NCBI GenBank assembly: GCA_017525245.1
Contig: JAFXTE010000042.1
Coordinates: 1-53,037 of the forward strand
DNA length: 53,037 nucleotides
DNA from: Bacteroidales bacterium
Lineage (GTDB): Bacteria; Bacteroidota; Bacteroidia; Bacteroidales; WCHB1-69
Reading direction: 5' to 3'
Of this stretch, positions 30,184-51,577 are shown piece by piece (within the stretch, counting starts at the first letter, position 1; every line of letters starts with the position of its first letter). The notes below the pieces were generated by a model that did no database searches, was not told the DNA's origin, and saw only the letters and a program-made list of their open reading frames with translations. Made by a program: the position numbers and the translations under genes.

Positions 30184-30186
30184 AAC

Positions 30187-33455: not shown

Positions 33456-34721
33456 ATGATAGAATTATCCAAAGGAACGAGAATAACATTGTCGAACGGC
33501 GGTTATGTGACCATTAAGAAGGAACTTGGACGCGGTGGTCAGGGAATTGTCTATTTGGTGGATTACAACGGCAAGGATATGGCGTTGAAATGGTATCTGA
33601 ACGCTCCGGACAGCTGTTTTTACAACAATCTCAACAACAATATTCTGAATGGAGCACCGAGTGATGCTTTTCTTTGGCCAAAGGCACTTGCCGAACGTCA
33701 ACAAGGTAGTTTCGGATACCTTATGGATTTACGACCTGGCAACTATTTCGAGTTTGGAAACTTCTTGATGGCGAAAGTCAAGTTTGCCAGTTTCGACGCG
33801 ATGCTGAACGCTGCTATGAAGATATGCAATGGCTTCATGATGCTCCACCGTTTCGGTTACAGCTATCAGGACTTGAACGATGGCAACTTCTTCATCGATC
33901 CGAAAACAGGAGACGTTCTCATCTGCGACAATGACAATGTGATGCCCCAGGGCGAGAAGTCCGGCATCATGGGTAAAGCCCGCTATATGGCACCCGAAGT
34001 AGTGGCCGGGGGCATACCCGACAAGTACAGCGACCGCTATTCGTTGTCCGTCATCCTCTTCATGCTCTTCTATGTCAACCATCCGCTCGAAGGTGCAAAG
34101 GTTGTTGCCTGTCCCTGTATGACTGAGACTTACGAGAAGAAGTTTTACGGAAGTGAGGCGGTATTTATCTATAACCCCAACGACAAAAGCAACCTCCCTG
34201 TTCGCGGGATCCATCAAAATGTCATTCGCCGCTGGCCGGCTTTGCCTGCAATTCTGCGGAATACGTTCACTCGTGAGTTTAGCGAAGAAATGCTCCGAAA
34301 TCCGCAGAAACGTATGCTTGAGCAGAATTGGGAGAAGTTGATAGCAACCCTGCGCGATAGCCTTGTTATCTGTCCCCATTGCAAAGGAGAAACCTTTATC
34401 GAAGAGGGCAAGAGCATGTGTATGAACTGTGGAAAGGATGTAGAAGTTCCTCTATCGCTTAAAATAGGCAATCGAAATGTCTTTCTAACAGGAGGTACCA
34501 AACTCTATATTGACCACGACAACAATGCCGATGTGCTGGTGTTAAAGGATGCAAAAGCAGGATTATTGCTCTTAAAGAATCTTTCATCGGATACTACATG
34601 GACGGCTGAAACTCCTAGCGGAAAGTTGAAAACAGTTGCACCTGGAGAGTGTGTGCCAGTGAAGGAGGGAATCAAAGTCTCTTTCAATCAAACGACCAAA
34701 GGAGAAATAATATCAAGATAA
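33456..34721 (+). CDS. Serine/threonine protein kinase of a TerY-P-type triad
   Basis: The 421-residue protein has an N-terminal kinase domain (about 15-310). Glycine loop GRGGQG (25-30), Lys45 in ALKWY, catalytic loop YQDLNDGNFF (Asp139, Asn144), metal site CDND in place of DFG (158-160) and MAPE (178-181) are visible. A CPHC...CMNC zinc ribbon (about 302-323) follows, then a beta-rich end (about 335-421) resembling the FHA-like tail of such kinases. With a vWA protein and a PP2C phosphatase next to it, it forms the TerY-phosphorylation triad described for tellurite-resistance-linked stress loci. HRD is replaced by YQD, but the catalytic Asp is kept. Confidence 0.9.
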   Translation: MIELSKGTRITLSNGGYVTIKKELGRGGQGIVYLVDYNGKDMALKWYLNAPDSCFYNNLNNNILNGAPSDAFLWPKALAERQQGSFGYLMDLRPGNYFEFGNFLMAKVKFASFDAMLNAAMKICNGFMMLHRFGYSYQDLNDGNFFIDPKTGDVLICDNDNVMPQGEKSGIMGKARYMAPEVVAGGIPDKYSDRYSLSVILFMLFYVNHPLEGAKVVACPCMTETYEKKFYGSEAVFIYNPNDKSNLPVRGIHQNVIRRWPALPAILRNTFTREFSEEMLRNPQKRMLEQNWEKLIATLRDSLVICPHCKGETFIEEGKSMCMNCGKDVEVPLSLKIGNRNVFLTGGTKLYIDHDNNADVLVLKDAKAGLLLLKNLSSDTTWTAETPSGKLKTVAPGECVPVKEGIKVSFNQTTKGEIISR

Positions 34722-34723
34722 CT

Positions 34724-35095
34724 ATGCCTGAAATTACACCTTTAAGCGAAGCTGCGTTTGTCACACTGGCGATGTGTGAAAAAACAAAGAAGCCCTATGG
34801 AATTACCGTAGATAAGGGGGGATTTGGTTTGTATAAGATGGTGTGGTCTTTCAAAATCGATTATGAAAAGGCTCAAAGAGAAGGGTATGATCGCATCAAG
34901 GTGTCTGGAAGAATCGTCGAAGATGCAAACTTTCCTGGGTGTCCTTATTGTGAATCTAAACACTGGTATAGTTGTAATAATTGCCATACAATTATATGTT
35001 ACCATGGTCAAAGTCATGTTACTTGTCCAAAATGTGGTTGTAAAGGGGAAATAACCCAAGTTGAAAAGATTAATATTGAAGGAAGTGCATATTAG
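34724..35095 (+). CDS. Stand-alone TerY-C-like zinc-binding protein
   Basis: The start is the ATG at 34724, two bases after the kinase stop; the longer frame from 34649 overlaps the kinase. The 123-residue protein has a C-terminal cysteine/histidine cluster at about 70-107 (CPYCESKHWYSC, then CHTIICYHGQSH and CPKCGC). This pattern is like the TerY-C metal-binding domain that usually ends TerY vWA proteins. The vWA protein next door lacks that domain, so here it seems to be split off into its own gene. The first 65 residues have no clear family. Confidence 0.65.
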   Translation: MPEITPLSEAAFVTLAMCEKTKKPYGITVDKGGFGLYKMVWSFKIDYEKAQREGYDRIKVSGRIVEDANFPGCPYCESKHWYSCNNCHTIICYHGQSHVTCPKCGCKGEITQVEKINIEGSAY

Positions 35096-35153
35096 TAGCA
35101 TTGAAACTATATAGAAAAAAGAAATTTTAATAATAACGTAAAAACATATCATT

Positions 35154-35894
35154 ATGTCACTTTTAGACGAAACCGTAGAAATTCCGCGTCGCACGATGAC
35201 GCTTTTCTTCATGATTGACACCTCCGGCAGCATGGCCGGCAGTAAGATTGGTGCCGTAAATGACGCCGTGGTCAATGTTCTTCCCATGTTGGAGGAAATT
35301 TCCGCAGAAAACCCCGATGCAGAAATCAAAGTGGCTGCATTGGAATTCTCCACCACCTGCCATTGGCTCTATAACGAGCCCAAACCCGCTAATGAGTTTG
35401 TCTGGCAAGATGTTCAAGCATCAGCACTTACTTCTCTCGGTGCTGCTTGCAAAGAATTGTCAGGCAAACTGTCCAGAAGTGGATTTATGAAATCCGCCAG
35501 CGGCTCTTTCGCACCTGCTATCATATTGCTTTCTGACGGAGCTCCAACGGATGATTTTGAATCAGGACTTGCTGTGTTGAAAAACAACAATTGGTTCAAG
35601 GCCGCCATCAAGGTGGCTGTGGCGATTGGAGAAGATGCAGATAAAGAAGTGCTGGCACAGTTCACCGGGACTAACGAAGCCGTTTTCACTGTCCACAATA
35701 TTGAAGCCCTGAAGCAAGTGATTCGTGTTGTGGCCGTTACTTCCTCACAGATCGGCAGCAAGAGCAGTACGGCTGGCGATACAACCAAGCAGGAACAAGT
35801 AATCGCAGAAGTGAAGTCAGCGGTTGACAATATCGGCGGCGCTGAAGTGGCTTCCGCTCCATCTTCAACCGTTTCCTACGATGATTGGGATTAA
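35154..35894 (+). CDS. TerY-like von Willebrand factor A protein
   Basis: The 246-residue protein is a single vWA domain. The MIDAS motif is FMIDTSGSMAGSKIGAVNDAV (Asp22, Ser24, Ser26), with later LTSLGAAC (Thr near 95) and LLSDGAPTDD (about 124-133). It fits TerY-type vWA proteins, which bind metal and protein partners in the TerY-P triad. It ends with a low-complexity tail (about 205-246). The phosphatase gene starts 14 bases before its stop, so translation is coupled. Confidence 0.88.
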   Translation: MSLLDETVEIPRRTMTLFFMIDTSGSMAGSKIGAVNDAVVNVLPMLEEISAENPDAEIKVAALEFSTTCHWLYNEPKPANEFVWQDVQASALTSLGAACKELSGKLSRSGFMKSASGSFAPAIILLSDGAPTDDFESGLAVLKNNNWFKAAIKVAVAIGEDADKEVLAQFTGTNEAVFTVHNIEALKQVIRVVAVTSSQIGSKSSTAGDTTKQEQVIAEVKSAVDNIGGAEVASAPSSTVSYDDWD

Positions 35895-36939
35895 GTGCTT
35901 TAACAGCCATTGTCAGGGAGAAAGCCACAAAGCAACGGACAAGCCCTGCCAAGACTTTTCGTTCAGTATCAAAACGGAAGGTTATGCTATCGCTATGGTC
36001 AGTGATGGCCATGGCGGGGAACGTTATTTTCGTAGTGATGTGGGATCGAAGATAGCAGTGGAAGTGGCTCACCGATGTTTAGTGGAGTTTGCAGAGGGCA
36101 TTTCCCCGTCCTTGTTTGCTGATTTGCCGAGCACACCAGTTGGCATTGGCGACACCTATCATCCTGAACTACAGCGATTAGTGGAAGCAATTGTGGTAGG
36201 GTGGCGGAATGCCGTCTTGGAACATGCAACGGCAAATCCCTTAACCGAGACAGAACAACTCATATCAAATCCGAAAGATGATCATGAGTGGGAGAAGACG
36301 TATGGTTGCACGCTCATTGCGACACTCCTTACCCCTAAGTTTTGGCTGGCGTTTCAGATAGGCGACGGAAAATGTGTGGTCATTGACAAAGAGGGAGTCC
36401 CTTACGAACCGATTCCATGGGATGACAAATGCTTTCTAAACAAAACCACCTCTATTTGCGACACGGATGCAGCAAGAGAGTTCCGATATTGCATTGGGGG
36501 CAAAGAGTCTTTCCCGATCGCAGTGTTTATGGGCAGCGATGGCATTGACGACTCGTTTGGCGAAGAAGAAAACCTGTACAATTTCTATATTCAATTGGCC
36601 AAAGGTTTTGCCAAGGATGGATATGAAGCCACCATTGCTGATTTGATAGCGACATTGCCCGTCCTCAGCAAGCGGGGAAGTCAAGATGACATGTCTGTGG
36701 CGGGGTGGTATGATGAGCGATTGGAAGGTATGACAACTCAATTGTCAGCTTGGCAGGTGCAACGCTTGATGACCAAACAGAAGACTCTTGCTAGTAAGAT
36801 TGCTTCAGCCTGGCATCAAATTATTTATGATCATCCACCAGTGCCGACAAAAGACTCCTTGTTCTCTGAATTATTACATTTTGGGAACGAAAAGATGTTA
36901 ATTGATAAAAAGATAGCACACATAAAAGAAGACAAGTAA
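35881..36939 (+). CDS. PP2C-type protein phosphatase of the triad
   Basis: The 352-residue protein has the metal-dependent PP2C fold: CQDFSF (Asp25), MVSDGHGGERYF (Asp42, Gly43), MGSDGIDDSF (near 220) and SQDDMSVAGW (near 270). The start at 35881 overlaps the vWA gene by 14 bases. It should reverse the action of the kinase at 33456. Residues 280-352 form a helical extension with no recognised domain. Confidence 0.9.
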   Translation: MIGIKCFNSHCQGESHKATDKPCQDFSFSIKTEGYAIAMVSDGHGGERYFRSDVGSKIAVEVAHRCLVEFAEGISPSLFADLPSTPVGIGDTYHPELQRLVEAIVVGWRNAVLEHATANPLTETEQLISNPKDDHEWEKTYGCTLIATLLTPKFWLAFQIGDGKCVVIDKEGVPYEPIPWDDKCFLNKTTSICDTDAAREFRYCIGGKESFPIAVFMGSDGIDDSFGEEENLYNFYIQLAKGFAKDGYEATIADLIATLPVLSKRGSQDDMSVAGWYDERLEGMTTQLSAWQVQRLMTKQKTLASKIASAWHQIIYDHPPVPTKDSLFSELLHFGNEKMLIDKKIAHIKEDK

Positions 36940-37004
36940 TAACTTGGTGCGGTGTTGTTAATGAGATTATCATAATAACGAAATCCTAGTTTACTCAAGA
37001 ATAA

Positions 37005-38261
37005 ATGGCACAAAACGAATTACATATTGCTGTTAAACAGGCTATTTTCGATCTAGGGAAAAAAGCTATCAAAGAGGATACCTTTTACGGTGTTTTGTTG
37101 GATTATAACGCATATCCTCAGAATCCGATTGTAAGTTCAAACCTAAAGAGTGTTATGAAAGACATCCTCAATGAAGGCTATGGAAGAAAGGTGTATTATT
37201 GGTCAACTCATCCAAGTGTTGGTTGGAAAACCCTAAACGATAAGTTTATAGATGGTTTTATTAGGAAAACCCAACATGATTCCGCGTCTGTTAACACAGT
37301 ATCCGAAGCTCTTTTATATGGAATAGGATTGATCAACGATATTACAATTACTTGGCAGAATATAAATGTAACCAGTGAAAATCCGGATTCGTTGTCCAAG
37401 CTAAAGGATGCTTATTTGAAATTACTCATCAATTCAATAACAATAGAAGAGGATTCTTCAGGCCTTCAATCGGCCTATTATACACCCGAATCTAATGCTG
37501 AATTGTTTGCGTTGGAAGAAAAGATAAGAAACGCTTATGAGATTCTTTCTTCTAAATATGATAATTGGTGTGACATCAAAAAGAATAGTTTTTTGAAAAA
37601 AGTTCAACAAGATATTGATTCTAAAAATGCGATAATTAAAAATAAAATCCGAAAACAAAAACGCAGACGCAACCGAAGAATAATTTTGGCTGTTTTGATA
37701 GGCTTTGTTGTTTTTGTGATAGTTATTTCAAACCATGAATATAATAAAGCCAAACCTTATATAGCAGCCTTTGAATCTTCAATCGCATTGGGAGATAGTG
37801 CTGCAGAACAACATGATTATCTTTCCGCATTGAATCACTACCGGCAAGCCGCTGATAATTATACATGCATTTGGGCTACTGATCAGTATAGAGAAGAAGC
37901 AATGCAAAAACGATTGGAACTTATCCTTGGTTTATGCGACAAATGTGTGCAGAAGAGTAAAGATTATTTATCAAATAGCACCTTACCTTCTCCGAGTGAT
38001 TGCTATATGGTAAAAAATTTGTTGGACAGCATACCATCAGATGAGATATTAACAAACGAAGAAACAGAAGCGAAAAACGCCCGTCTTGTCGAAGTTGATT
38101 CGATCCTTAATGATGCAATTGAAAAAAATATAGTAGAACTGTTAAATGGTATTTCAAATAATCGTGGAGAACGCACAACAGCTATACTATCAAAAATAGA
38201 CACACTCTTGTTGTGTGATAAAGACAATTATTGGTTACACATCATCAAAGAAAAAAAGTAA
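37005..38261 (+). CDS. Unrecognised membrane protein with island-specific N-terminal domain
   Basis: The 418-residue protein is not recognised as a whole. Its first ~70 residues (LHIAVKQAIFDLGKKAIKED, then LLDYNAYPQNP and ILNEGYG) match the N-terminus of the protein at 42552 (LQIALKHAVDDLGFDVLKSP, then LADYHALDVHDP and LVAENYY). A very basic stretch (KIRKQKRRRNRR) precedes one transmembrane helix (about 226-243). The C-terminal half is helical with a TPR-like unit (LSALNHYRQAADNY, about 270-283). It overlaps the HxsA start by one base (TAATG). Confidence 0.7.
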   Translation: MAQNELHIAVKQAIFDLGKKAIKEDTFYGVLLDYNAYPQNPIVSSNLKSVMKDILNEGYGRKVYYWSTHPSVGWKTLNDKFIDGFIRKTQHDSASVNTVSEALLYGIGLINDITITWQNINVTSENPDSLSKLKDAYLKLLINSITIEEDSSGLQSAYYTPESNAELFALEEKIRNAYEILSSKYDNWCDIKKNSFLKKVQQDIDSKNAIIKNKIRKQKRRRNRRIILAVLIGFVVFVIVISNHEYNKAKPYIAAFESSIALGDSAAEQHDYLSALNHYRQAADNYTCIWATDQYREEAMQKRLELILGLCDKCVQKSKDYLSNSTLPSPSDCYMVKNLLDSIPSDEILTNEETEAKNARLVEVDSILNDAIEKNIVELLNGISNNRGERTTAILSKIDTLLLCDKDNYWLHIIKEKK

Positions 38262-39151
38262 TGAAAAGGCATCAGAAAAAATTGATAAAAGCCCTGTTGA
38301 TTTCTGCAGCATATTCTTTGGTAAACACTACAGCAAAAGCTGAAATAATAATTCCGGAGTTGTTGGATAGCGATGACAAGAATTGCTCTGTGGATCAGCT
38401 TGTTAAAACAAAAACATACCATAATGTCATTAAAATGGGGCCTTCTGGCAATCTCTATGGTGTAAATGACCATCGATCACACAGTTCTCACCGATCTCAT
38501 AGTTCTCACCGATCGAGTAGAAGTGGTCACAGCTCTCATTATTCAAGTTCTCATTATTCGAGCAGTAGCAGTTATAGGTCTTCAAGCAGTAGTTCAGGAT
38601 TAACCAGTGGAGCTACAAGTCTGTACTCTACTCCTAAAAAGACATTTGAAACATATTCATTAGGGGATCGGACATTGAAAAAAGGTCTTTATGGAGCAGA
38701 TGTTGATGTATTGGTTCGCAAGTTGATAAATTATCAATACTTGCGATCCGATGGTCTAAAGCGACAATCAGGGTATTACTTGTTTGATAATCAGGTGGAA
38801 CAAGCTGTAAAGTATTTTCAAGAAGATGCTTCGCTTACAGTTAATGGTGTTGTTGATAGCAGTACTGAAAATGCCCTATTAGTTTGGTCTTCATCTAAAA
38901 CTCATCTGCGATTAGGGGTGCGCGATTTATATGTGGGTTGCTCTGGAGAAGATGTGGAAACATTAATACAATTGCTAAACAAGGCAAATTGTCCGCCCAA
39001 TCCTGAAAAATTCAAAATAGATAATGATATGTATATCTACACGGATGATATTGCTACCGCTGTTCGTGTGTTTCAAGCATTTGCAGGATTAACGGTAACA
39101 GGACGCGCTGATTTAACGACTATCAATAAACTTAAAGCTTCAACCAAATAG
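38261..39151 (+). CDS. hxsA: His-Xaa-Ser repeat protein HxsA
   Basis: The 296-residue protein is the presumed substrate of the His-Xaa-Ser system. A signal peptide (about 1-24, ending NTTAKA) is followed by an acidic stretch and the repeat region at about 74-115, with HRS, HSS, HRS, HSS, HRS, HSS, HYS and HYS triplets in a serine-rich context. The C-terminal ~165 residues hold two peptidoglycan-binding (PG_binding_1-type) units: VEQAVKYFQEDASLTVNGVVD and IATAVRVFQAFAGLTVTGRAD. The start is the ATG overlapping the upstream stop. The His-Xaa-Ser side chains are probably modified by HxsB and HxsC; the modification is not known. Confidence 0.9.
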   Translation: MKRHQKKLIKALLISAAYSLVNTTAKAEIIIPELLDSDDKNCSVDQLVKTKTYHNVIKMGPSGNLYGVNDHRSHSSHRSHSSHRSSRSGHSSHYSSSHYSSSSSYRSSSSSSGLTSGATSLYSTPKKTFETYSLGDRTLKKGLYGADVDVLVRKLINYQYLRSDGLKRQSGYYLFDNQVEQAVKYFQEDASLTVNGVVDSSTENALLVWSSSKTHLRLGVRDLYVGCSGEDVETLIQLLNKANCPPNPEKFKIDNDMYIYTDDIATAVRVFQAFAGLTVTGRADLTTINKLKASTK

Positions 39152-39158
39152 AAAGCAA

Positions 39159-39458
39159 ATGATAGAATTCATAATAGATAGAACAATTTATTCCGACGCT
39201 TGTATCACCAAGAGCATCTACGCATTGTCGAAGGATTACGACTGCCAACGTTCTATGAGTGGTACAAAAGAATCTGTCAAGATGACTCCACGTGACACAT
39301 CAGTTTCCGAGGAGGGTGCCCGACATGCTTTTCTTCAGATGCTGAACGACTATAAGGCGCGTGAAATCATTGCTTCTGAGACAAAAGATATTCGCACAAT
39401 ACTGTATGCAAAAGCGTTTGCCGATTGTGACGATTTTGATGAGGAGGTTGAGCAATGA
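39159..39458 (+). CDS. hxsD: His-Xaa-Ser system protein HxsD
   Basis: The 99-residue protein sits between HxsA and the radical SAM enzymes, the expected place and size for HxsD. It begins IEFIIDRTIYSDACITKSIYALS, which has the strand-then-helix look of the family, and has a C-terminal helical part. It may bind the substrate as a recognition element, as small proteins in other radical SAM peptide systems do. It overlaps hxsB by four bases (ATGA). The call relies mainly on context. Confidence 0.8.
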   Translation: MIEFIIDRTIYSDACITKSIYALSKDYDCQRSMSGTKESVKMTPRDTSVSEEGARHAFLQMLNDYKAREIIASETKDIRTILYAKAFADCDDFDEEVEQ

Positions 39459-40855
39459 AAAACTATTATCTTCTTCCATTCGATTTTACCCGCATTGCCA
39501 ATCATGAGGTATTGGTGAATGAGTTTGGCGACATGTTGGTGTTGCCCGATGGTAGTGTGGATAAGATTGTAAACCACCAGCTGGAAGAAGATGATACCTA
39601 CAAAGACCTTGTAGCAAACTATTTCATCAGCGAGAATAGGATTCCTACCAATCTCGATATCTATGCTTCCCGACTGCGTGAGAAGAAACGTTTTCTGGAT
39701 GATTTTACGGCTCTGCATATTTTTGTTGTCACCCTCCAATGCAATCAAAACTGCGTCTATTGTCAGGCATCAAGCCGGACGGAACAAAGTGTTCATTGCA
39801 CCATGTCGTTCGACACGATGGAGAGTGCCGTCAAACTGATGTTCCGTTCTCCAGCACCCGTGCTGACAATGGAATTCCAAGGAGGCGAACCGAGTTTGCA
39901 TCCAGAACTGATACGATTTGGTATAGAGACAGCAGAACGTATCAATGAAAGTGAGAATCGCAAGATGCGATATGTTCTTTGCACCAACAGTGTCCATTTA
40001 ACCGATGAGATGCTGGATATTTGCAAGCAGTATCAGGTTATGATTTCCACTTCGCTGGATGGTCCGTCATTTTTGCATAATGCGAATCGAGGAAAAACCG
40101 ACAGCTACGAGAAAGTGGTGGCCGGTATAGAGAAGGCTCGTCAAGCTTTGGGCTTTGATATGGTTTCCCCATTGCAGACGACTTCGATAATGGCGTTGGA
40201 TTACCCAATAGAGATTGTGGACGAGTATGTGAGAATGGGATTCAATGGGATTTTCCTCAGAGCTTTGAATCCGTACGGATTGGCTGCGTATAACCAAAAC
40301 TGGTGTCAGTACACCGAGCGTTTCATCGAGTTCTACAGAACCGCTTTCGAGCATGTTCTGGAGATAAACAAACAGGGAACCTTCTTTATGGAGGAGTTTG
40401 CCGTGATTGTCCTCCGCAAGATACTGACTCCTTTCTGCACAGGGTTTGTTGACCTTCAATCGCCAGCCGGTATCATCAATTCGGTGTTGGTGTATAACTA
40501 CGACGGATATGTATATGCATCCGACGAGTCGCGTATGTTGGCCGAAAACGGCGACAACACCTTCCGATTGGGTAGTGTCCACGATCGGTACGAAGATATT
40601 GTTTTTGGTCCAAAGGTGCAAAGGATAGCACAAATATGGGCTAACGAAACTCTCGCCGGTTGTTCCGACTGTGCTTTGAGAAACTATTGTGGAGCCGACC
40701 CTGTGCGCAACTATTCCACTCAGGGCGATATGTACGGGCATCGCCCCACCTCTTTGCTTTGCAAGAAGAACAAAGCCATTATTGAGTATTTGATTACGCT
40801 GATTATTGAGCGTAAAGAAGAAGTACTTCCCATCTTTAAACGCTGGCTGCTATGA
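39455..40855 (+). CDS. hxsB: His-Xaa-Ser system radical SAM maturase HxsB
   Basis: The 466-residue enzyme has an N-terminal extension (about 1-85), then the radical SAM cluster motif CNQNCVYC (Cys96, Cys100, Cys103) and the GGEP-type SAM motif FQGGEPSLH (about 140-148). The C-terminal SPASM-like cluster region contains GCSDCALRNYCGAD (near 408-421) and a late Cys (LLCKKN), enough for auxiliary iron-sulfur clusters. It should modify HxsA in the cytosol before export. It overlaps both neighbours by four bases. Confidence 0.92.
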   Translation: MKNYYLLPFDFTRIANHEVLVNEFGDMLVLPDGSVDKIVNHQLEEDDTYKDLVANYFISENRIPTNLDIYASRLREKKRFLDDFTALHIFVVTLQCNQNCVYCQASSRTEQSVHCTMSFDTMESAVKLMFRSPAPVLTMEFQGGEPSLHPELIRFGIETAERINESENRKMRYVLCTNSVHLTDEMLDICKQYQVMISTSLDGPSFLHNANRGKTDSYEKVVAGIEKARQALGFDMVSPLQTTSIMALDYPIEIVDEYVRMGFNGIFLRALNPYGLAAYNQNWCQYTERFIEFYRTAFEHVLEINKQGTFFMEEFAVIVLRKILTPFCTGFVDLQSPAGIINSVLVYNYDGYVYASDESRMLAENGDNTFRLGSVHDRYEDIVFGPKVQRIAQIWANETLAGCSDCALRNYCGADPVRNYSTQGDMYGHRPTSLLCKKNKAIIEYLITLIIERKEEVLPIFKRWLL

Positions 40856-41724
40856 GGACGGAATTTGACATCAACTCTAACGACAATGCTTTGTTCGTAA
40901 CAGCTCAATGCAACAACCATTGTTTGATGTGCTGCCAACCACCTGGTAAGGTGGATGATATTGAGTCTTTGTATGAGCACAACATACAGTTGTTGTATTC
41001 AGCCCCAAAAGAATTGAAGGTGCTGGGTATTACCGGAGGCGAACCTACTTTGCTTGGAGGCAAATTGATTACTCTTTTGCAAGAAGTTCGTAAATGCCTG
41101 CCAGAAACTGCCATTCAATTATTGAGCAATGGACGTGCTTTCAAGGATACTGCTTTTACACGAGAAGTATGTCAAGCTGCGGGAGAGAACTTTTTTGTTG
41201 GAATTCCATTCCACTCGGATTATTCCGGGGACCACAACTTGATAGCAGGCAGTAAACACGCCTATGATGAGACGATGACAGGATTGTACAATCTTGCTGA
41301 TGCTGGTGTTGAGATTGAACTGAGAGTGGTCGTCAATAAACTCAACTATACTAGATTACCAAGAATGGCTGAATACATTTTCAAAAATCTGCCGTTTGTT
41401 GCATGGACCGCTTTTATGGGAATGGAAAGAGTTGGTTTGTCTGTTAAAAATGCAGAGAAAATTTGGGTGGAACCCAATGAGTACGCTCCCATATTGCGAG
41501 AGGCTGTAATGGCAATGGACGATTGGCGAATGGATGTGGCCATCTACAATATCCCTTTGTGTCTGTTGCCGCACGATTGCTGGCCGTTTGCAAAACAAAG
41601 CATTTCCGATTGGAAAGTGAAGTTCCTTGCAATCTGCAATGATTGTGATGTGAAAGAGATGTGCTGTGGCTTATTCAGCACTTCTAAATGTAAATTTCAG
41701 GGAATAAAACCAATGAACCTCTAA
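40852..41724 (+). CDS. hxsC: His-Xaa-Ser system radical SAM maturase HxsC
   Basis: The 290-residue radical SAM protein has CNNHCLMC (Cys20, Cys24, Cys27) near its start, GITGGEPTLLG (about 60-70) as the SAM-binding motif, and a C-terminal cysteine group (CNDCDVKEMCCG and CKF, near 261-284). It lacks the long N-terminal extension of HxsB. The gene overlaps hxsB by four bases, so the two are made together. With HxsA, HxsB and HxsD the system is complete. Confidence 0.92.
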   Translation: MRTEFDINSNDNALFVTAQCNNHCLMCCQPPGKVDDIESLYEHNIQLLYSAPKELKVLGITGGEPTLLGGKLITLLQEVRKCLPETAIQLLSNGRAFKDTAFTREVCQAAGENFFVGIPFHSDYSGDHNLIAGSKHAYDETMTGLYNLADAGVEIELRVVVNKLNYTRLPRMAEYIFKNLPFVAWTAFMGMERVGLSVKNAEKIWVEPNEYAPILREAVMAMDDWRMDVAIYNIPLCLLPHDCWPFAKQSISDWKVKFLAICNDCDVKEMCCGLFSTSKCKFQGIKPMNL

Positions 41725-41755
41725 AAGAGTATTAAAGAAAAAACTATCTGTTATC

Positions 41756-42523
41756 ATGGAAAAAACGAATCAGGATCAATATTTCAAAAAAGGGCTAAGC
41801 TTTTACGAACAAGAGGATTATCTCACCGCCATTGAGTTTTTTCAGGCGGAAATTGAAAATAGTCCCCGTAATGAAACTGCATACTTGTATCTGTCCAAGT
41901 GTTATAAGAACACTGGAAAAGAACTGGTACATAGAAAAACTTTGCATAGATTACTCTCTATCAATCCAAACAATCAAGATGCTTTGAAAGAACTATCCAT
42001 AAACTTTGGGGGTGAGAATATGTTGTACAATAAGGGAGCGTCTCTCAACACGCCAATCTATTACGGATGCGTTGATGAAAACAAACAACCCCATAAGTAT
42101 GGAACATTCATCCGACCCGATGGCACATTTTATAGCGGCTGTATGCGACATGGTACAATGTATGGTGAGGGTATCATGAAAAGTTCAAATGGAGCCGTTG
42201 TCATCTCACATTTTAACGATGATGTTGTTGAGAACGGGCTAATACTTTTGCCATGCGGCACAAAAATAGAGGGATATTTGAAAAACTCATTGCCTTGCGG
42301 GCGGTGTACGATTACTTTATCCAACGGGATAATAATAGAGGGAACGTTTCATGGATCAGAATTAGATTCCAAAGAGGAATGTACTGTAATAGATAATACA
42401 GGAAATGCTCTGACGGGGCATTTTATAAATAAGGTGTTTGTCCCGACCAATAAAGATGCCGACAGAATTGATGCCGAGCTTGTGGCAAGCATTATCAAAT
42501 GTTGGCCAAATATAAAATTCTAA
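41756..42523 (+). CDS. TPR protein with MORN-like repeats
   Basis: The 255-residue protein has two TPR units at the N-terminus (about 8-75: YFKKGLSFYEQEDYLTAIEFF, then AYLYLSKCYKNTGKE and HRLLSINPNN). MORN-like beta-repeats follow (about 110-215), such as KYGTFIRPDGTFYSG, YGEGIMKSSNG and CGTKIEGYLKN. Its TPR part is paralogous to that of the protein at 46541 (RLLSINPNN against RLLSINPDN). No signal peptide is seen, so it is probably a cytoplasmic scaffold. Confidence 0.78.
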   Translation: MEKTNQDQYFKKGLSFYEQEDYLTAIEFFQAEIENSPRNETAYLYLSKCYKNTGKELVHRKTLHRLLSINPNNQDALKELSINFGGENMLYNKGASLNTPIYYGCVDENKQPHKYGTFIRPDGTFYSGCMRHGTMYGEGIMKSSNGAVVISHFNDDVVENGLILLPCGTKIEGYLKNSLPCGRCTITLSNGIIIEGTFHGSELDSKEECTVIDNTGNALTGHFINKVFVPTNKDADRIDAELVASIIKCWPNIKF

Positions 42524-42551
42524 TTATATTGTATCTTTTATAGATCCATCA

Positions 42552-43109
42552 ATGAGTTCCGAGACCTTACAAATTGCCCTTAAACATGCCGTTGACGACC
42601 TCGGTTTTGATGTGCTTAAATCGCCGAACCTTGTAAACATTTTGGCGGATTATCACGCTTTAGATGTGCATGACCCCGTGTTGAAAGAGAAGAAGGGTGT
42701 CATCAAATCTTTGGTGGCGGAAAATTATTATGATAAGATTTCAGAATGGCGAAATAAAGCTGATACATATTGGGAAAGTAAGGACAGCGATTGGTTGAAT
42801 AGATTTTGTAATAAAACGAGTCTGAAAAGGACTGTGGTGGAGCCGATTGCTGATTCTATGAAAATTGTGGCTGGTCTCAAACAATCAATCTGTAATCAAG
42901 AAGACATCGAGGAAGAACAGAACAAAAAAGTAGATTCAGATAAACGAATCTCCGAAAAAACAATCGATCGGAAAAAAGCAATGAATCAAGAAGAAAAGGC
43001 TGTGTTTTCAGTCATTATAATTGTGTGTGTTATTTTTATAGGAGTATTGATTTCACTTATAGGGCTTCTTGCTGTTTTGGGCATTTTTTTACGGAATTAT
43101 CCCTTTTAG
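42552..43109 (+). CDS. Small membrane protein sharing the island-specific N-terminal domain; 3' end altered by an IS
   Basis: The 185-residue protein has the same ~70-residue N-terminal domain as the protein at 37005, a charged linker and a C-terminal transmembrane helix (about 150-178). The transposon at 43092 is inserted within its last codons: the final residues RNYPF and the stop (43107-43109) are read from the transposon end. Removing the transposon and one copy of the 8-bp duplication puts a TGA directly after IFL, so the original protein was probably 180 residues long. The insertion is therefore nearly neutral for this gene but may separate the downstream genes from their promoter. Confidence 0.75.
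   Translation: MSSETLQIALKHAVDDLGFDVLKSPNLVNILADYHALDVHDPVLKEKKGVIKSLVAENYYDKISEWRNKADTYWESKDSDWLNRFCNKTSLKRTVVEPIADSMKIVAGLKQSICNQEDIEEEQNKKVDSDKRISEKTIDRKKAMNQEEKAVFSVIIIVCVIFIGVLISLIGLLAVLGIFLRNYPF
43084..43091. repeat. Target-site duplication, left
   Basis: TTTTTTTA, identical to 45488-45495. Eight bases is the duplication length expected for IS1595-family elements. Confidence 0.85.
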
Positions 43110-43162
43110 TCTTGTAAACCAAATTCACAATAAGTTGAATTGAGAAATACGTAGCAAACACT

Positions 43163-44020
43163 TTACCTTTGTGGTGGCAATGGTTTTGCTTTCATTGTGC
43201 GTAGATATGATATAGCAGATGGAGGTATTTCGGTTGTCGTATATATACCTTTCGGTTCGTTTATATCATAATAAAAGTGTGTCAATTCATTCAGTTTTTT
43301 CAAATCTACGACAAATATCGCATAAATATCCGTTAAATTTGGTATGTTCTTTTTTGCTGCTTGACCATAAAGAGAATCCACCAATGCTTGCAAGTCTTCT
43401 TCGGTCGCTGTACCTTCAGACAAGAAAACACGTTCTTCTGAATATTGATATTCGGGATTGTCATTTGATGGTTTCAATCCATTCTTTAGGATTTTCTCTT
43501 TGAAAATGACGGGGGCTGCGTGATAAACAATATCAGATTCGGCATAAATTGTCTCCGTCACATCATCTGGTTTACTTGGTTCAAAACGCATATCAATCCA
43601 CTTTCTTTTCTTACGGTCAACAAGTAAATTTTTGTCAGTTGGTTTGCTTCTGAAAAAACCAAGTGTTCTCATAGATTCTTCTATTATCTCAATGTTGTTG
43701 TCGGTTACTGCGATAAGCAATGCCGCATACAAACCGTGATTTCCCTCTACAATAACAAACTGTTCTTCACTTATCGGAAATGTTGATGTGATTATATCTT
43801 TTACTTTGGTTATCTGTTCCAAATAATCTGTACCTTCACAAACACGCCTCGTTGACAACGGATGTCTGTGGTCTATTTTGAGTAAATACGGATTATACCG
43901 TTTCCATCCTTTGTCAAGTATTGACATAGGAATCTTTTCCAAATCAAAAATATCATCTTTTGTGTTTTCCTTTCCGATATATGATTCTTTAATAAATTCT
44001 TCAGAGGTTTTTATTTTCAT
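43163..44020 (-). CDS. Transposon passenger gene, possibly ADP-ribosyltransferase-like
   Basis: The 285-residue protein is not firmly recognised. The C-terminal part reads YHAAPVIFKEKILKNGLKPS (about 170-189), then YSEERVFLSEG (about 197-207) and IFVVDLKKL (about 234-242), then GIYTTTEIPPSAI (about 258-270). The order H-x-A, I-xx-GL-x-P, R-V-F/Y-L and a late E/P-rich strand resembles KptA/ART-type ADP-ribosyltransferase folds. The N-terminal half has a WKRYNPYLLKIDHRHPLS stretch and EGNHGLYAALLIA. It could be a toxin-like cargo. The fold call is an inference from motif order only. Confidence 0.4.
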   Translation of the reverse strand: MKIKTSEEFIKESYIGKENTKDDIFDLEKIPMSILDKGWKRYNPYLLKIDHRHPLSTRRVCEGTDYLEQITKVKDIITSTFPISEEQFVIVEGNHGLYAALLIAVTDNNIEIIEESMRTLGFFRSKPTDKNLLVDRKKRKWIDMRFEPSKPDDVTETIYAESDIVYHAAPVIFKEKILKNGLKPSNDNPEYQYSEERVFLSEGTATEEDLQALVDSLYGQAAKKNIPNLTDIYAIFVVDLKKLNELTHFYYDINEPKGIYTTTEIPPSAISYLRTMKAKPLPPQR

Positions 44021-44114
44021 AAATCACGCTTTTCCTATATTTATAAACCGATTTAGCACGCAGCAAAATACAAAAAATCACTCGTATAAATATTGAAAAT
44101 ATAAATTTGAAACT

Positions 44115-44447
44115 ATGACACACATTAAGAGAATTGACGAAATGGCAAATACACAGCAAAACAACTTGTTTGATGCGGTGAAAAACGAATTGACAATAGG
44201 TATGCCATATAACGATGCTGCAAATATATTAAGAAAACACGGTTTATTGTTATCCGAATACGGCAATGTACAATATAACAAACAAGACCATTGTTATGCG
44301 GAATATAATTTGACTGGTGAACGTGGACAATGCCCCAAAATTGTTTTGTATTACACATTTGTGAAAGTACCAAATAAACGTGATTCTTGGGTTGCTGGTG
44401 ATACTTATGACATCGAATTTTATGCGGAAGACGGTGTTATTGAATAA
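44115..44447 (+). CDS. Transposon passenger gene, unrecognised small protein
   Basis: The 110-residue protein (or 101 residues if the second ATG at 44142 is used) has no recognised family. Its first half is helical (GMPYNDAANILRKHGLLL) and its second half is beta-rich (KIVLYYTFVKVPNK, TYDIEFYAED). It is divergent from the ART-like gene, with 94 bases between them, and sits inside the transposon, so it may be a partner or immunity factor. Its stop is three bases from the transposase stop (convergent). Confidence 0.55.
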   Translation: MTHIKRIDEMANTQQNNLFDAVKNELTIGMPYNDAANILRKHGLLLSEYGNVQYNKQDHCYAEYNLTGERGQCPKIVLYYTFVKVPNKRDSWVAGDTYDIEFYAEDGVIE

Positions 44448-44450
44448 TAT

Positions 44451-45383
44451 CTATGCTGCAATACCTTTAATTCCCAACCCGACCAAGTGCGTCCAAGCAC
44501 TTTCAATGTCACGGTGGTTGAGGCGATAGCAAAACTCGTCAACATACTCTTGCAGGTGCTTAACCGAAACGTGGTGGTATATCCCGTACACACCACGTTT
44601 TAATATTGCCCAACAACTCTCAATGCCGTTGGTATGCTTGCCGTCACCGAGCGAATAGGTCATACTGTGGTCAACCTTGATGTGGACATATTTCTTCTCG
44701 GTATTGCCGTCCAATATACCATAACTGCTTAATTGGTCGGTCATAACGGTTGTGTCCTTCTTACAAACCTCATCCAAAATGCTTAACAACTGTTTGCCGC
44801 TCAACTTCTTGCCCTCCTTGTTAGGCATAGCAATAACGGCGTGAATCCTGCCGCTGCTGCGCTCAAGAACCCCGACAACGGGTGTTTTGTTTGTTCCCCT
44901 GCCACGCTTGCTTTTCTTGGTCTTCTTTCCCTTGTGGGTGTTTTCTTTACGAGGTTTGCCACCCACATAGGTTTCGTCAATCTCCACAATCGCCTCAAAA
45001 GCGTTCTTGTGGGTTTCAGTACCCATTGCCGTTCTAATCAACCGCAACATCCTAAACGCACCCTTGTAGGACTTCATACCCAACTCCCTTTGCAGTTGCA
45101 GTCCGCTTATGCCTTTGCGGGCGATAAGCACGAGGTTTATGGCGAACAACCACATACGAATATCAAGGTGTGTATGCTCAAAGATAGTCCCCGTAAGGGC
45201 GGAGAACTCGCTTTTGCAGTTATTGCAGTAAAGGTTGCGGTGGTTGTAGCGTTGGTGGTAGATTTTGCGGTGTACGCACCCGCATTTCGGGCATACATAC
45301 CCGTCCTTGTACTTGGTCTCAACGATGAAATCTATCGCATCGTTCTCGGTCGGAAATCTCTTGAAAAAATCGAACTGGTTCAT
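44451..45383 (-). CDS. IS1595-family transposase
   Basis: The 310-residue transposase has an N-terminal zinc ribbon (CPKCGC and CNNCKSEF, about 30-61) and a DDE-type ISXO2-like catalytic domain with EIDETYVGG (about 132-140), TDQLSSYG (near 213-220) and NGIESCWAILKRGVYG (near 250-265), where Asn/Glu completes the acid triad. The frame is uninterrupted and both ends of the element are present, so it may be active. Confidence 0.95.
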   Translation of the reverse strand: MNQFDFFKRFPTENDAIDFIVETKYKDGYVCPKCGCVHRKIYHQRYNHRNLYCNNCKSEFSALTGTIFEHTHLDIRMWLFAINLVLIARKGISGLQLQRELGMKSYKGAFRMLRLIRTAMGTETHKNAFEAIVEIDETYVGGKPRKENTHKGKKTKKSKRGRGTNKTPVVGVLERSSGRIHAVIAMPNKEGKKLSGKQLLSILDEVCKKDTTVMTDQLSSYGILDGNTEKKYVHIKVDHSMTYSLGDGKHTNGIESCWAILKRGVYGIYHHVSVKHLQEYVDEFCYRLNHRDIESAWTHLVGLGIKGIAA

Positions 45384-45487
45384 ACTCTTTGATTTTGAAT
45401 ACGTTGCAAAGGTACGAACTCTTTAGACACGACTATGATTTTTGCTATTAGCAGAAATCCGTTACAAGACTAAAAGGGATAATTCCG

Positions 45488-45495
45488 TTTTTTTA
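45488..45495. repeat. Target-site duplication, right
   Basis: TTTTTTTA, matching 43084-43091. The next three bases (TGA) restore the original stop codon of the gene at 42552. Confidence 0.85.
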
Positions 45496-45541
45496 TGATT
45501 AGTTAGGTGGTAAACGTTAAAAATTCAGATTTAGATTTGTT

Positions 45542-46498
45542 ATGAAAAAGAAAAACATCGTGATTTTAGGAAATGGCTTTGACCTTGATTTAGGATTGAG
45601 AACATCCTTTAGAGATTATCTTAGTTCCAGCATTCATGCGGAATTTAGCGTAAACACTGCCACCTTTCAAAAGATAGAGGACAAAGACAAGTGGGGTGAC
45701 ATCGAAGGTGTTTTAAGGGAATCAATATTGGACGCTTTAAAAAGTAACGTTGATGATATAGATAAGGATATTAATGTGACATGGAACATGATCCGAAAAG
45801 GATGGGGTGTTTATTTGCCCAAATATATCGAAACTGTTCAGAATATATTAAAAATCGAACACGACTATTTAGTTAAAGAAAAATTTTTTGACGACTTTCC
45901 AATTAGGAAGAAATCATGTGCCTATTTGTTGGCAAGAAAAATTAAGAATTGGGATTCCGTATATTCTTTTAATTATACAAATCCAACAGATATTCTATTT
46001 GGAGAACGATCCAGTGATATTAACTTTATTCATGGGGAACTTACTCTTCGCAAACAAACACAATTTGAAGCTCATTTGATAGATAAATATCTTGCTTTAG
46101 GAGTTGATTACAAAAGAATGAATGAAGAAATACGAAAGAGAGAACTTCTTTCTCCAATAATGAAGTTAGCTTTTATGGAAACAGATTCTTTTCGCGATGG
46201 CTTGAACAAAGCTATGAAGAGCGCAAAGAATATCATTTTTTTCGGTCATTCTATGTCAATCACTGATTCCGATTATTTTGAGGACTTTTTTCATGGAGTC
46301 ATAGAAGGCTTGATTGTGGACAAGAGCTTTTTCTTTATCACAAAGGATTCTAATGGCTTGTCTGATATAAAAGAACACATGAGTGAATGGGAAATAGATT
46401 TTGACAAACTAAACAATTCTGGCAATCAGGTTTTTGAAATTTTTACAGATAATGGCGTTGAGGATGAGGACTTCAAAAGATGTCTTGATATGTTATGA
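45542..46498 (+). CDS. AbiH-family protein
   Basis: The 318-residue protein starts with IVILGNGFDLDLGLRTSFRDYL (about 6-27), the AbiH nucleotide-binding-like opening GNGFD. It continues with YSFNYTNPTDIL (about 141-152), INFIHGEL (about 160-167) and IIFFGHSMSITDSDYF (about 233-248). This is the full motif set of AbiH, an abortive phage-infection protein distantly shaped like SIR2. Before the transposon arrived, it followed the gene at 42552 by about 45 bases, so it was part of the same operon. Its biochemical activity is not known. Confidence 0.88.
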   Translation: MKKKNIVILGNGFDLDLGLRTSFRDYLSSSIHAEFSVNTATFQKIEDKDKWGDIEGVLRESILDALKSNVDDIDKDINVTWNMIRKGWGVYLPKYIETVQNILKIEHDYLVKEKFFDDFPIRKKSCAYLLARKIKNWDSVYSFNYTNPTDILFGERSSDINFIHGELTLRKQTQFEAHLIDKYLALGVDYKRMNEEIRKRELLSPIMKLAFMETDSFRDGLNKAMKSAKNIIFFGHSMSITDSDYFEDFFHGVIEGLIVDKSFFFITKDSNGLSDIKEHMSEWEIDFDKLNNSGNQVFEIFTDNGVEDEDFKRCLDML

Positions 46499-46540
46499 TA
46501 TAGAGTCATTATTTATGAGTGAAACGTCTAATTTTAAAAT

Positions 46541-47374
46541 ATGGACAAATTGAAACAAATTGATGGATGCCCCGGTGAAGACTATTTCGCCATGGGTGTT
46601 GACGATTTCGAGAATGGGGATTTCAAACGAGCTATGGAATTTTTCCAAGCTGCTATTGAACAGAATCCGTATTTGGAGCAAGCCTATCTGAAGCTTGCAG
46701 AGGTCTATTTTTCTCTTAACGACGAAAGGAATGCAAAGAAAACACTTTATAGGTTGTTGAGCATAAATCCAGACAATAGTCATGCACAAAAACTGTTGCG
46801 CCCATCCCCAAAAGGTTCAAATCTCTGTGTAGACAAAGTAGAGACCGTCAATTCAGAAATCACCTCTACCAAAAGTAAAGCTCCACTTACAGCTGTGATA
46901 GCTAAAGCTGGCAGTTTGTCTGACACACGGCTTGACATTAATAAAACATATTTGATAGACCTTCCCGATGGAAACAAAATATACTTGGATGTTTTTACTT
47001 CGTATCGTGATAAAAATAAACGTTATTTTGGTAAAATTGTAAGATATTATCAAAGACCCCAAGGTGATTTGAGCATACCATCGTCGGTCCTCATCAAGGG
47101 CAACCACATAACCATTACTCAAATCAGCTCACATGCTTTTAGTTTTTGTGACAAATTAATAAGTGTTGAGATTCCTCCGACTGTAACGATAATTGGAGAT
47201 TATGCTTTTCCAGATTCTGCACTTCAAAAGGTTACGTTTTTGGGTGAATGGCCTCCCAAAATTGAACTATTTACATTCGGTGGTCATCAAACTATTATTC
47301 AATTCTTCGTTCCCGAACCATATATTCAAAATTACCAAAAATATCTTCCTCGTTATACATTAATTCCTTTTTAA
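46541..47374 (+). CDS. TPR protein with BspA-type leucine-rich repeat end
   Basis: The 277-residue protein has an N-terminal pair of TPR units (about 12-85) paralogous to the protein at 41756. After a linker, there is a beta-rich segment (about 145-200) and BspA/LRR_5-type repeats: ITQISSHAFSFCDKLISVEIP and VTIIGDYAFPDSALQKVTFLG (about 195-240), ending EPYIQNYQKYLPRYTLIPF. No signal peptide is seen. The two TPR paralogues bracket the transposon and AbiH gene. It ends two bases before the next gene. Confidence 0.8.
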   Translation: MDKLKQIDGCPGEDYFAMGVDDFENGDFKRAMEFFQAAIEQNPYLEQAYLKLAEVYFSLNDERNAKKTLYRLLSINPDNSHAQKLLRPSPKGSNLCVDKVETVNSEITSTKSKAPLTAVIAKAGSLSDTRLDINKTYLIDLPDGNKIYLDVFTSYRDKNKRYFGKIVRYYQRPQGDLSIPSSVLIKGNHITITQISSHAFSFCDKLISVEIPPTVTIIGDYAFPDSALQKVTFLGEWPPKIELFTFGGHQTIIQFFVPEPYIQNYQKYLPRYTLIPF

Positions 47375-47376
47375 TT

Positions 47377-48471
47377 ATGAGTACCTGTAAATACTGTGGA
47401 CAAAAAGCCGGACTCTTTTCCGACTGTCATAACGAATGCGAAGCGAAACATGCCCAAGGGCTTGTGCGGTTACGTACGCTCATGGACGATTATTTCCGTA
47501 ATCCCAACGGGGTCACAACTATTCTCCAAGAATACCAACAGTTGGTTAAGGAACATTACCTGAACAGAGAGGATATTGCAAATATTGCGGGAGCGGCTAT
47601 CGACCGATACGCTGATTCGCTGCACAGACCGTTCTCCGCGTCAATCTTGCAAATAGTCTCGCAGTTCCTGATCCAGTTCAAAGTGTCTTATTCCGACGCA
47701 AACCAATCAGGGGCAATAACACGGTTGTCGCAGAAAATCATCAAGGGACATATCGCCGACTATTTCACTGGTGCCATTGACATTGCCCAAATGCAAGGAC
47801 GTATTCACAAAGTCATCAGTTCGTTTCCCATTTTGCCAGACGACATCAACGAGACCTATCAGTATATGCTCAACAAGGCTGCCGACAACTTTTTGAAAGA
47901 TGGTCAATTGTCTGGACAAGAGGAACATCTTTTGAACCAGTACATGGCTGCACTGAATATTCAAGTCCAGAATCTGCCAGTTAAGTATCAGAGCGGAAGC
48001 ATCACTAGAATTGCACAAAACAGCATCTTAAACAATATACAAGCCGGCAATCTACCAAATCAACCTTCAATGCTGCCTATCGTGTTGGGTAAAGGTGAGT
48101 CCTTGCTTTGGACATATAACAATGTGACATTGTATCAGGAAAAGATAGAAAAAGAGTATGTTGGCCGTCATAATGGTGTCAGTGTTCGCGTAATCAAAGG
48201 AGTAACTTTGCGCACGGGTAAAATGAAAGGGAAGCCAGTAGAACATAGTTACATGAACAACATGGGAACAGGGGAGCTTTATGTGACCAACAAGCATCTG
48301 ATTTTCCAATCCCCAACAAAAGCCGTCAAAGTGCCCTTCGCAAAACTGATAGGCATCACTCCTTATACAGATGGGATTGAGGTTCACAAAGAAGGCGATG
48401 CAAAACGGTTGGTGTTGCAAGGCTTCGACAGTTGGTTTGTGATGTGTCTGCTCCAAATTGTCAATCAATAG
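47377..48471 (+). CDS. Zinc-ribbon protein with PH-like C-terminal domain
   Basis: The 364-residue protein opens with a zinc ribbon (CKYCGQKAGLFSDCHNEC, about 4-21). A long all-helical middle (about 25-225) contains two similar segments of about 60-70 residues each (SGAITRLSQKIIKG and SGSITRIAQNSILNN), suggesting an internal duplication reminiscent of TerB-like helical domains. The C-terminal ~110 residues (TGELYVTNKHLIFQSP, VPFAKLIGITPYTDGIEVH) look like a bacterial PH/GRAM-like domain. It ends the one-direction cluster. Confidence 0.65.
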   Translation: MSTCKYCGQKAGLFSDCHNECEAKHAQGLVRLRTLMDDYFRNPNGVTTILQEYQQLVKEHYLNREDIANIAGAAIDRYADSLHRPFSASILQIVSQFLIQFKVSYSDANQSGAITRLSQKIIKGHIADYFTGAIDIAQMQGRIHKVISSFPILPDDINETYQYMLNKAADNFLKDGQLSGQEEHLLNQYMAALNIQVQNLPVKYQSGSITRIAQNSILNNIQAGNLPNQPSMLPIVLGKGESLLWTYNNVTLYQEKIEKEYVGRHNGVSVRVIKGVTLRTGKMKGKPVEHSYMNNMGTGELYVTNKHLIFQSPTKAVKVPFAKLIGITPYTDGIEVHKEGDAKRLVLQGFDSWFVMCLLQIVNQ

Positions 48472-51122: not shown

Positions 51123-51246
51123 TATGAATATGAATGTCTCTTTCTCTCTTTCTATATAATGAGAGAGAAAATGGCAAAATATTGACAACCAGCAGATTGA
51201 AGGTTTTCGGGGGCTTTGCTTTGTCTGTTTGCTTGGCGTTTGGCAC

Positions 51247-51577
51247 GCGAGGACACATGGCACGCCGGCAGGATATGAAATGGTCGGAACAAGCAGTGAA
51301 AGAGAGCGACTACTTTACCAACATCTTCCACCAAAACAAGGAGATGAACAACGGGGTCTGGCACCACTTCAAGGCCTTTCTCATCAAACACCAAGACGCC
51401 TACCACACCATAGCCTTTATCTGCCCCAACTCTCCCGATTCCGTCATCATTGTTGGAACTGCCCGGTCAGTGAACACTGTCGAATCTCTCACGGGTTACG
51501 ATTTTTTCGGTTTTTTGGATGATGGCGTGGAAGAAACCATTGAAAATGAAGTTGAAGTCGGGCGTTGGGTGCGTTGA
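51247..51577 (+). pseudogene. Internally deleted duplicate of the NUC1 endonuclease
   Basis: RGHMARRQDMKWSEQAVKES and onward repeats the product of 48503-49297 almost exactly, up to NNGVWHH. It then jumps to FKAFLIKHQDAYHTIAF and matches to the end. About 43 residues are lost between them without a frameshift, and the N-terminal ~110 residues are absent. The frame is open from 51134 with an unrelated hydrophobic leader (VFGGFALSVCLAFG). The DNA identity is high, so the duplication is recent; it brackets the AbiE locus with the intact gene. Confidence 0.85.

Follow-up and report, generated by a model that had tools for sequence, protein, structure and literature searches.

The HXS system brings together two radical SAM proteins, HxsB and HxsC, with HxsD and a repeat protein, HxsA, and as far as our literature searches reach we know of no function for it. 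Its gene names appear in PMC9062424 and PMC8446631, and TerY together with radical SAM is mentioned in PMC11291487 (citations here and below refer to part of the text of each paper). The TerY-P triad, consisting of a kinase, a vWA protein, and a PP2C phosphatase, protects Pseudomonas aeruginosa against phages, with most cells surviving and some dying (PMC10889362). Its kinase carries a fused C-terminal zinc ribbon, and the triad also accompanies other systems, such as CoCoNuTs, as an add-on (PMC11090510). Linked kinase, PP2C, and vWA genes are also an optional partner of GAP1-N2 GTPase systems, and for an FtsH ternary vWA conflict system, a peptide effector alongside a radical SAM protein has been proposed (PMC7159879). 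The cores of the latter two, GTPase/GAP1 and MoxR-FtsH-vWA, respectively, are unlike the locus described here, however, and HXS is not named in that part of the paper. Among the matches listed, no description of TerY-P united with HXS was found in the open-licence literature. Here, we describe such a union in the genome of a Bacteroidales bacterium (GCA_017525245.1), on contig JAFXTE010000042.1, of which the whole stretch of 53,037 nucleotides was analysed (the window). Comparison of sequences leads us to read it, with a probability of roughly 0.6, as one form of a modular TerY-P hub of Bacteroidales whose outputs can be exchanged, HXS being a putative envelope output.

The source genome was assembled as a draft of 3.68 Mb with 111 contigs (completeness 94, contamination 6). 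Between 33.4 and 49.3 kb of the window, one strand carries genes for a kinase, TerY_C, vWA, PP2C, memTPR, HxsA, HxsD, HxsB, and HxsC, followed by a TPR/MORN-like protein, memS, a transposon, AbiH, a TPR-LRR protein, ZnPH, and an endonuclease (NUC). The genes of the 2 systems, and those sharing the domains NTD or TPR-N or recurring beside the triad, are the following:

33456..34721, plus strand: Ser/Thr kinase with a C-terminal zinc ribbon (CPHC 306, CMNC 322) and a tail that looks beta-rich by eye (PF00069; motifs LKW, DLNDGN, and CDND, and the cysteine pairs)
34724..35095, plus strand: TerY_C metal-binding protein, a separate small gene (PF15616 over cut-off)
35154..35894, plus strand: TerY-like vWA protein with MIDAS motif DTSGS (PF00092)
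35881..36939, plus strand: PP2C phosphatase, with an ATG start and a 14-nt overlap with the vWA gene (PF13672; DGHGG and SDG motifs)
37005..38261, plus strand: memTPR, with an N-terminal NTD (37014-37343), a linker, one transmembrane (TM) helix (residues 222-246), and a C-terminal region ending in YWLHIIK (NTD and MEMC profiles; hydropathy)
38261..39151, plus strand: HxsA, with a start resembling a signal peptide by eye, 8 HxS motifs, and two peptidoglycan-binding stretches (domain and motif matches)
39159..39458, plus strand: HxsD (TIGR03976 over cut-off)
39455..40855, plus strand: HxsB radical SAM maturase, CNQNCVYC (TIGR03978, 564.5 bits)
40852..41724, plus strand: HxsC radical SAM maturase, CNNHCLMC (TIGR03977, 324.5 bits)
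41756..42523, plus strand: TPR-N protein with a MORN-like tail (TPRN profile; Pfam matches below cut-off)
42552..43109, plus strand: memS, with a second NTD (42561-42887; NTD profile, 5e-27) and one TM helix by hydropathy; its 3' end enters the transposon repeat
46541..47374, plus strand: TPR-N protein with BspA-like LRR (PF14559, PF13306; TPRN profile)
47377..48471, plus strand: ZnPH, with a zinc-knuckle-like start, a helical middle, and a PH-like C-terminal domain (present in 19/27 triad loci)

The TPRN profile was built from the two TPR-N proteins of the window. A preliminary description of this DNA, made from the sequence alone, had placed a TerY-P set and a complete HXS system in a single run of genes, and domain and motif matches confirm this: the union is real. 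As in known TerY-P triads, the three folds are present (PF00092, PF13672, and PF00069, all over cut-off), and their genes form an unbroken same-strand run that includes the TerY_C gene, while the kinase-zinc ribbon fusion is seen by motif only, as zinc-ribbon-like cysteine pairs after the kinase domain. Unlike in those triads, the partners are NTD and TPR-N proteins and HXS. The resemblance to HXS systems lies in HxsB, HxsC, and HxsD, which all pass NCBIfam cut-offs, and in the repeat protein beside them, whose 8 HxS motifs exceed the maximum of 6 found in 2000 shuffles. The system differs in that HxsA scores below both curated models (26.7 bits against a cut-off of 121.65 for HxsA, and 26.3 against 48 for HxsA2; E about 1e-5), in its memTPR partner, and in the presence of the triad in one HxsB clade only. 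Catalytic and metal-binding motifs are intact in the window's kinase, vWA, PP2C, HxsB, and HxsC. They are also conserved across the triad loci, in 27/27 for kinase and vWA and for the DGHGG of PP2C (its DD in 26/27), and the radical SAM cysteines are kept in all 19 HxsB and 18 HxsC proteins called there. PADLOC models gave no match to vWA or PP2C at E<=5, and the kinase matched PD-T4-6 and mad6 weakly.

Within the window's family, HxsB scored over its cut-off in only 3 of 104 genomes; the two others (G086, G008) encode kinase, vWA, PP2C, memTPR, HxsA-D-B-C, and ZnPH in the order of the window. A scan of reference genomes yielded 136 HxsB relatives, 80 of which were kept, picked by two HxsB peptide patterns. 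As loci picked in this way are biased towards near relatives and towards loci with HXS, their counts say nothing on how common each output is. The kept loci were combined with further genome loci in an HxsB tree of 86 rows, after removal of three duplicate records, and a triad was called where a locus held at least two triad genes. The caller of open reading frames (ORFs) was simple, missing the TerY_C gene of the window and fusing HxsC with its neighbour in L022.

A triad was present at 19 of these 86 HXS loci, all of them inside one 36-row clade (support 100/99), versus 0/50 outside it. In 17 of the 19, the order kinase-vWA-PP2C-memTPR-HxsA-HxsD-HxsB-HxsC was kept on one strand, with HxsB proteins 65-94% identical to that of the window; variation among these 17 consisted of one extra intervening ORF in L022 and L025, a second NTD protein in L041, and two HxsA-like ORFs in L025, L036, L042, and L071. 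The remaining two (L028 and L116) had the two blocks swapped, with the HXS block first. TerY_C relatives were called as ORFs in 12/19 triad loci with HXS, to which tblastn adds L022, L028, and L043. Ten of the 17 clade rows without a triad are split or end no more than 5.2 kb upstream of HxsB (L024, L030, L031, L034, L037, L048, L050, L052, L054, and L110); a PP2C gene lies at the edge of L031, and the genome of L110 (G469) has a triad on another contig. Triad, memTPR, and HxsA-D-B-C were also found in order in Segatella baroniae B14 and Bacteroides faecichinchillae JCM 17102, while ZnPH was not found in the stretches fetched from these two. An even sample of 393 order genomes contained HxsB (E<=1e-90) in 14, vWA (E<=1e-20) in 6, and both in 3 (p 7e-4). 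The system was seen only in Bacteroidales, from gut and rumen, among the sampled genomes, with 0/276 in the other genomes of the phylum sample. The preliminary description would have been refuted had homologous TerY and HXS genes never occurred together in other genomes; instead, they recur as an ordered unit.

Two further observations concern the distribution of HXS. Bacteroidales-type HXS genes occurred on contigs labelled Treponema and proteobacterium (L063, L048), by transfer or mis-binning. In the window's own family, L023 (G050:C251) encodes a distant radical SAM pair, 22-24% identical to HxsB/HxsC and below the HXS cut-off.

The union of TerY-P and HXS could also arise if two defence-type cassettes shared an island and a transcript without functional contact. 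Defence genes do cluster in this region (SIR2-HerA, AbiH), and triads and HXS each also occur alone. We consider this improbable, given an order kept over the range of HxsB identities above, a triad-linked domain in the junction gene memTPR, and the tracking of vWA by NTD across genomes, which are detailed below. TerY-P and HXS very probably form a coupled unit.

The domain in question, NTD, was absent from the preliminary reading of the window. It comprises ~105 residues common to the heads of memTPR and memS, and a profile built from both matched 49 proteins at first and, with later loci added and duplicates removed, 53 proteins in 29 loci. A triad was found in 22 of these 29 loci; 5 are cut or split, and 2 have no triad (L113, L114). 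In the first set of 82 loci, NTD was present in all 18 with at least two triad genes and in the single locus with one (L031), and in 4/63 without triad genes, all 4 cut. An AlphaFold2 model of NTD is all-helical (pLDDT 96.4). No solved structural relative was found, nor did Pfam name a family on NTD in ten proteins; a DUF6548 match below cut-off on memS partly overlaps it. NTD resembles the EADs of PMC7159879 as a small, helical, non-enzymatic domain fused to many adjacent candidate effectors. It is not filed here as an EAD, however, because no copy was found on a core component (hmmsearch --max, E<=10); NTD may work like an EAD without being classed as one. L113 and L114 hold NTD proteins in two genomes of the same genus without a vWA match, where the domain may act on its own.

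The TM-and-tail part of memTPR is present in 25 distinct loci, 19 with a triad and 6 without. All 19 of the former carry NTD. Among the latter, NTD is found in L031, L034, and L110, which are cut or split, and is absent from L044, L054, and L108, where memTPR begins at the linker (by eye). With the cut or split three set aside, the contrast is 19/19 versus 0/3 (Fisher 6e-4); with L054, whose contig ends 5.2 kb upstream, also set aside, it is 19/19 with NTD versus 2/2 NTD-less (p 0.005). Since memTPR exists with and without NTD and the two states follow the triad across these loci, NTD goes with the triad. On its other side, memTPR overlaps HxsA by 4 bp in 16/25 loci and by 1-11 bp in 6 more. 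Across the 393 order genomes, NTD and vWA each occurred in 6 and together in 4; without the window's genome these numbers are 5, 5, and 3 of 392 (p 1e-5). We therefore regard NTD and memTPR as the rather likely route of coupling.

Besides memTPR and memS, NTD heads a range of other proteins: FtsK ATPases (L033, L031, L121) and BspA-type LRR (L043), TPR (L033), PEGA (L041), FGE (L119, L121), and multi-TM proteins (L032, L043), the names in L121 being those of the record's annotation. In L104, which contains ZnPH and NUC and no HXS, NTD stands on a 2302-aa DUF4011-helicase-REase protein beside the triad (PADLOC PDC-S37, 1255 bits; Hhe, 555 bits). This protein is similar to Hhe in its DUF4011, helicase, and REase parts, and differs from it in carrying NTD and adjoining a TerY-P triad. 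A second head, TPR-N, is found on the TPR-MORN and TPR-LRR proteins of the window, on FtsK (L104), and on LRR proteins (L105, L115, L116, L025). The same kinds of tail, FtsK and BspA LRR, thus occur on NTD and on TPR-N, as would be expected of interchangeable adaptors.

Five genomes of one genus carry this vWA, four of them as proteins 97-99% identical to each other. The outputs of these four are NTD-Hhe and TPR-N-FtsK (G302), two TPR-N-LRR proteins (G448), AbiH and TPR-N (G568), and full HXS (G590); the fifth (G593, locus L117; vWA 74-75%) has an NTD protein and, by eye, a MotA/MotB-like pair. As vWA proteins 97-99% identical stand with HXS in L116 and L028 and without it in L104, L105, and L115, HXS is optional to the triad. 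The idea of one united system, put forward in the preliminary description, hence holds insofar as TerY-P and HXS recur in order, and fails insofar as HXS can be dispensed with. A cassette swap is visible at one chromosomal site, where L104/L120 and L115 share flanks and core at 85-94% DNA identity and where 7.4 kb containing the NTD-Hhe gene in L104/L120 correspond to 121 bp in L115. Over the triad tree, HXS presence is scattered, with 7 changes versus 7.1 under shuffled labels, and well-supported branches force at least 3. Judged from sequence, then, the core consists of the kinase, vWA, and PP2C, joined in most cases by ZnPH and in many by TerY_C; candidate outputs near it carry NTD or TPR-N, and HXS with memTPR is one such output, which others replace or join.

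Some triad loci show further neighbours. MotA/MotB-like pairs (by eye) adjoin TerY-P triads in L106, L117, L118, and L121, a Zorya-like arrangement, and L118 also encodes a DnaK-like protein (by eye). L121 and L124 correspond to NZ_CP091789.1, the Prevotella plasmid pE2-28, which carries TerY_C-kinase-vWA-PP2C together with ZnPH and four NTD proteins, FGE and FtsK among them. Nearby are three ADP-ribosylglycohydrolase genes and two radical SAM genes whose annotation does not name HXS.

Several observations weigh against the hub reading. Within the HxsB clade, seven rows show HXS and no triad in 7-10 kb upstream (L026, L027, L044, L046, L049, L059, L108), so that HXS can stand alone; L026 and L027 are one isolate, a swapped order is possible at L044 and L046, whose contigs end 1-2 kb downstream, and in G157, the source of L108, a vWA of this type was not found in the whole genome. 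HxsB and vWA are modestly associated once the window's genome is left out (HxsB in 13, vWA in 5, and both in 2 of 392 genomes; p 0.0096). Triads with TPR-N and no NTD occur in L105 and L115, and L106 and L118 show neither head at the thresholds used, as does L109 on its 3.7-kb contig. Two of the 6 NTD genomes (G425, G485) have no vWA match, and their NTD loci show no triad. The search that covered kinase, vWA, and ZnPH (hmmsearch --max, E<=10) found no NTD copy in them, one PP2C match at E 5 being noise, and the presence of a domain predicted by profile does not prove contact. Finally, 4/25 memTPR proteins (L042, L045, L054, L071) have no TM helix over threshold and L039 and L043 show two, and the predicted periplasmic position of the memTPR tail is inferred from hydropathy and charge.

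The remaining features of the window lie around this unit:

28126-31635, minus strand: SIR2-HerA defence pair (PADLOC SIR2, 549 bits; HerA, 817 bits), on the strand opposite to the kinase and ending 1.8 kb before it
32667..33428, plus strand: ion channel, a frequent HXS neighbour (PF00520; gene cluster in 24/82 loci)
43091..45488, no strand assigned: IS1595-family transposon with 27-bp perfect inverted repeats, two passenger ORFs, and a transposase at 44451-45383 (minus strand), by repeat and domain matches
45542..46498, plus strand: AbiH, an optional accessory (PF14253, 3e-24)
48503..49297, plus strand: NUC, a DNA/RNA non-specific endonuclease and frequent HXS neighbour (PF01223; gene cluster in 26/82 loci)

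The transposon is outside the system. It is inserted at a stretch of T residues within the 3' end of memS, and its passengers are a 285-aa minus-strand gene and a 110-aa ORF without a Pfam match. A truncated second copy of NUC lies at 51134-51577, the direct repeats being 85-90% alike and 2.3-2.4 kb apart.

In the preliminary description, the state of kinase and phosphatase was to govern how HxsA is matured or exported, by way of HxsB/HxsC, and AbiH and the channel were to be stress effectors. The joint run of triad and HXS genes agrees with this, as does the position of HxsD-B-C directly after HxsA. Nothing found points to control at HxsB/HxsC, however: the triad-linked change sits in memTPR, beside HxsA, as an extra NTD where the triad is present (HxsB was compared by tree only). 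AbiH was found in 2/27 triad loci, namely the window and one relative in L115, and an ion channel gene also lies near HXS in 12/67 HXS loci without a triad seen, so that both are accessories rather than core. We judge this mechanism a doubtful one, about as improbable as that of unconnected neighbours.

The outcome might also be something other than immunity, such as an envelope-stress or contact-dependent system, in which the hub would serve envelope repair or competition by regulating a modified protein bound to peptidoglycan. HxsA has peptidoglycan-binding stretches, NUC is a non-specific endonuclease, and GDSL hydrolase, MBOAT, and carbamoyltransferase genes lie near HXS in some loci. Such a purpose appears rather unlikely to us, considering that an Hhe-type helicase-nuclease and AbiH are among the alternative outputs of this hub, and that TerY-P of P. 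aeruginosa protects against phages (PMC10889362). For defence as the purpose of the hub, we would put the odds just short of even. The GDSL hydrolase, MBOAT acyltransferase, and carbamoyltransferase genes are found at L042:13414-18295, and elsewhere both with and without a triad; the same clusters occur in L045, L066, L071, L075, L078, and L088, with Pfam names taken from L042 only. This suggests that acylation or carbamoylation is tied to some HXS loci.

Within a modular TerY-P hub, the balance of kinase and phosphatase would shift on a signal that reports infection or stress; this might be a metal or nucleic acid sensed through the zinc domains. The phosphorylated state, with vWA as a scaffold, might then bind or release client proteins carrying NTD or TPR-N. 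With a cytosolic NTD and linker, a single TM helix, and a periplasmic C-terminal domain, memTPR could relay the signal across the membrane, where its tail would act on exported, peptidoglycan-bound HxsA; the His-Xaa-Ser repeat of HxsA would be matured by HxsB/HxsC with HxsD independently of the hub. The output may be a change in the envelope, for example one that blocks entry of phage DNA or stops a doomed cell. An envelope output against phage is plausible in light of the protection by P. aeruginosa TerY-P and the radical SAM and peptide effector proposed for a vWA conflict system. In its complete form, a phosphorylation-switched immune hub that uses two N-terminal adaptors to fire a radical-SAM-modified, peptidoglycan-bound His-Xaa-Ser protein across the inner membrane against infection, this proposal is tentative.

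TerY-P, HXS, and the use of TerY-P as an add-on were known before; the union with HXS, not found in the open-licence literature searched, and the candidate adaptor domain NTD appear to be new. NTD marks candidate effectors at loci whose memTPR, vWA, PP2C, and ZnPH genes were left unflagged by PADLOC models. As HXS is ordered beside a TerY-P hub and the protein at the junction has a hub-linked domain, the function of HXS becomes testable. If the proposal is true, it would provide the first function for HXS in the literature searched, together with a new family of adaptors.

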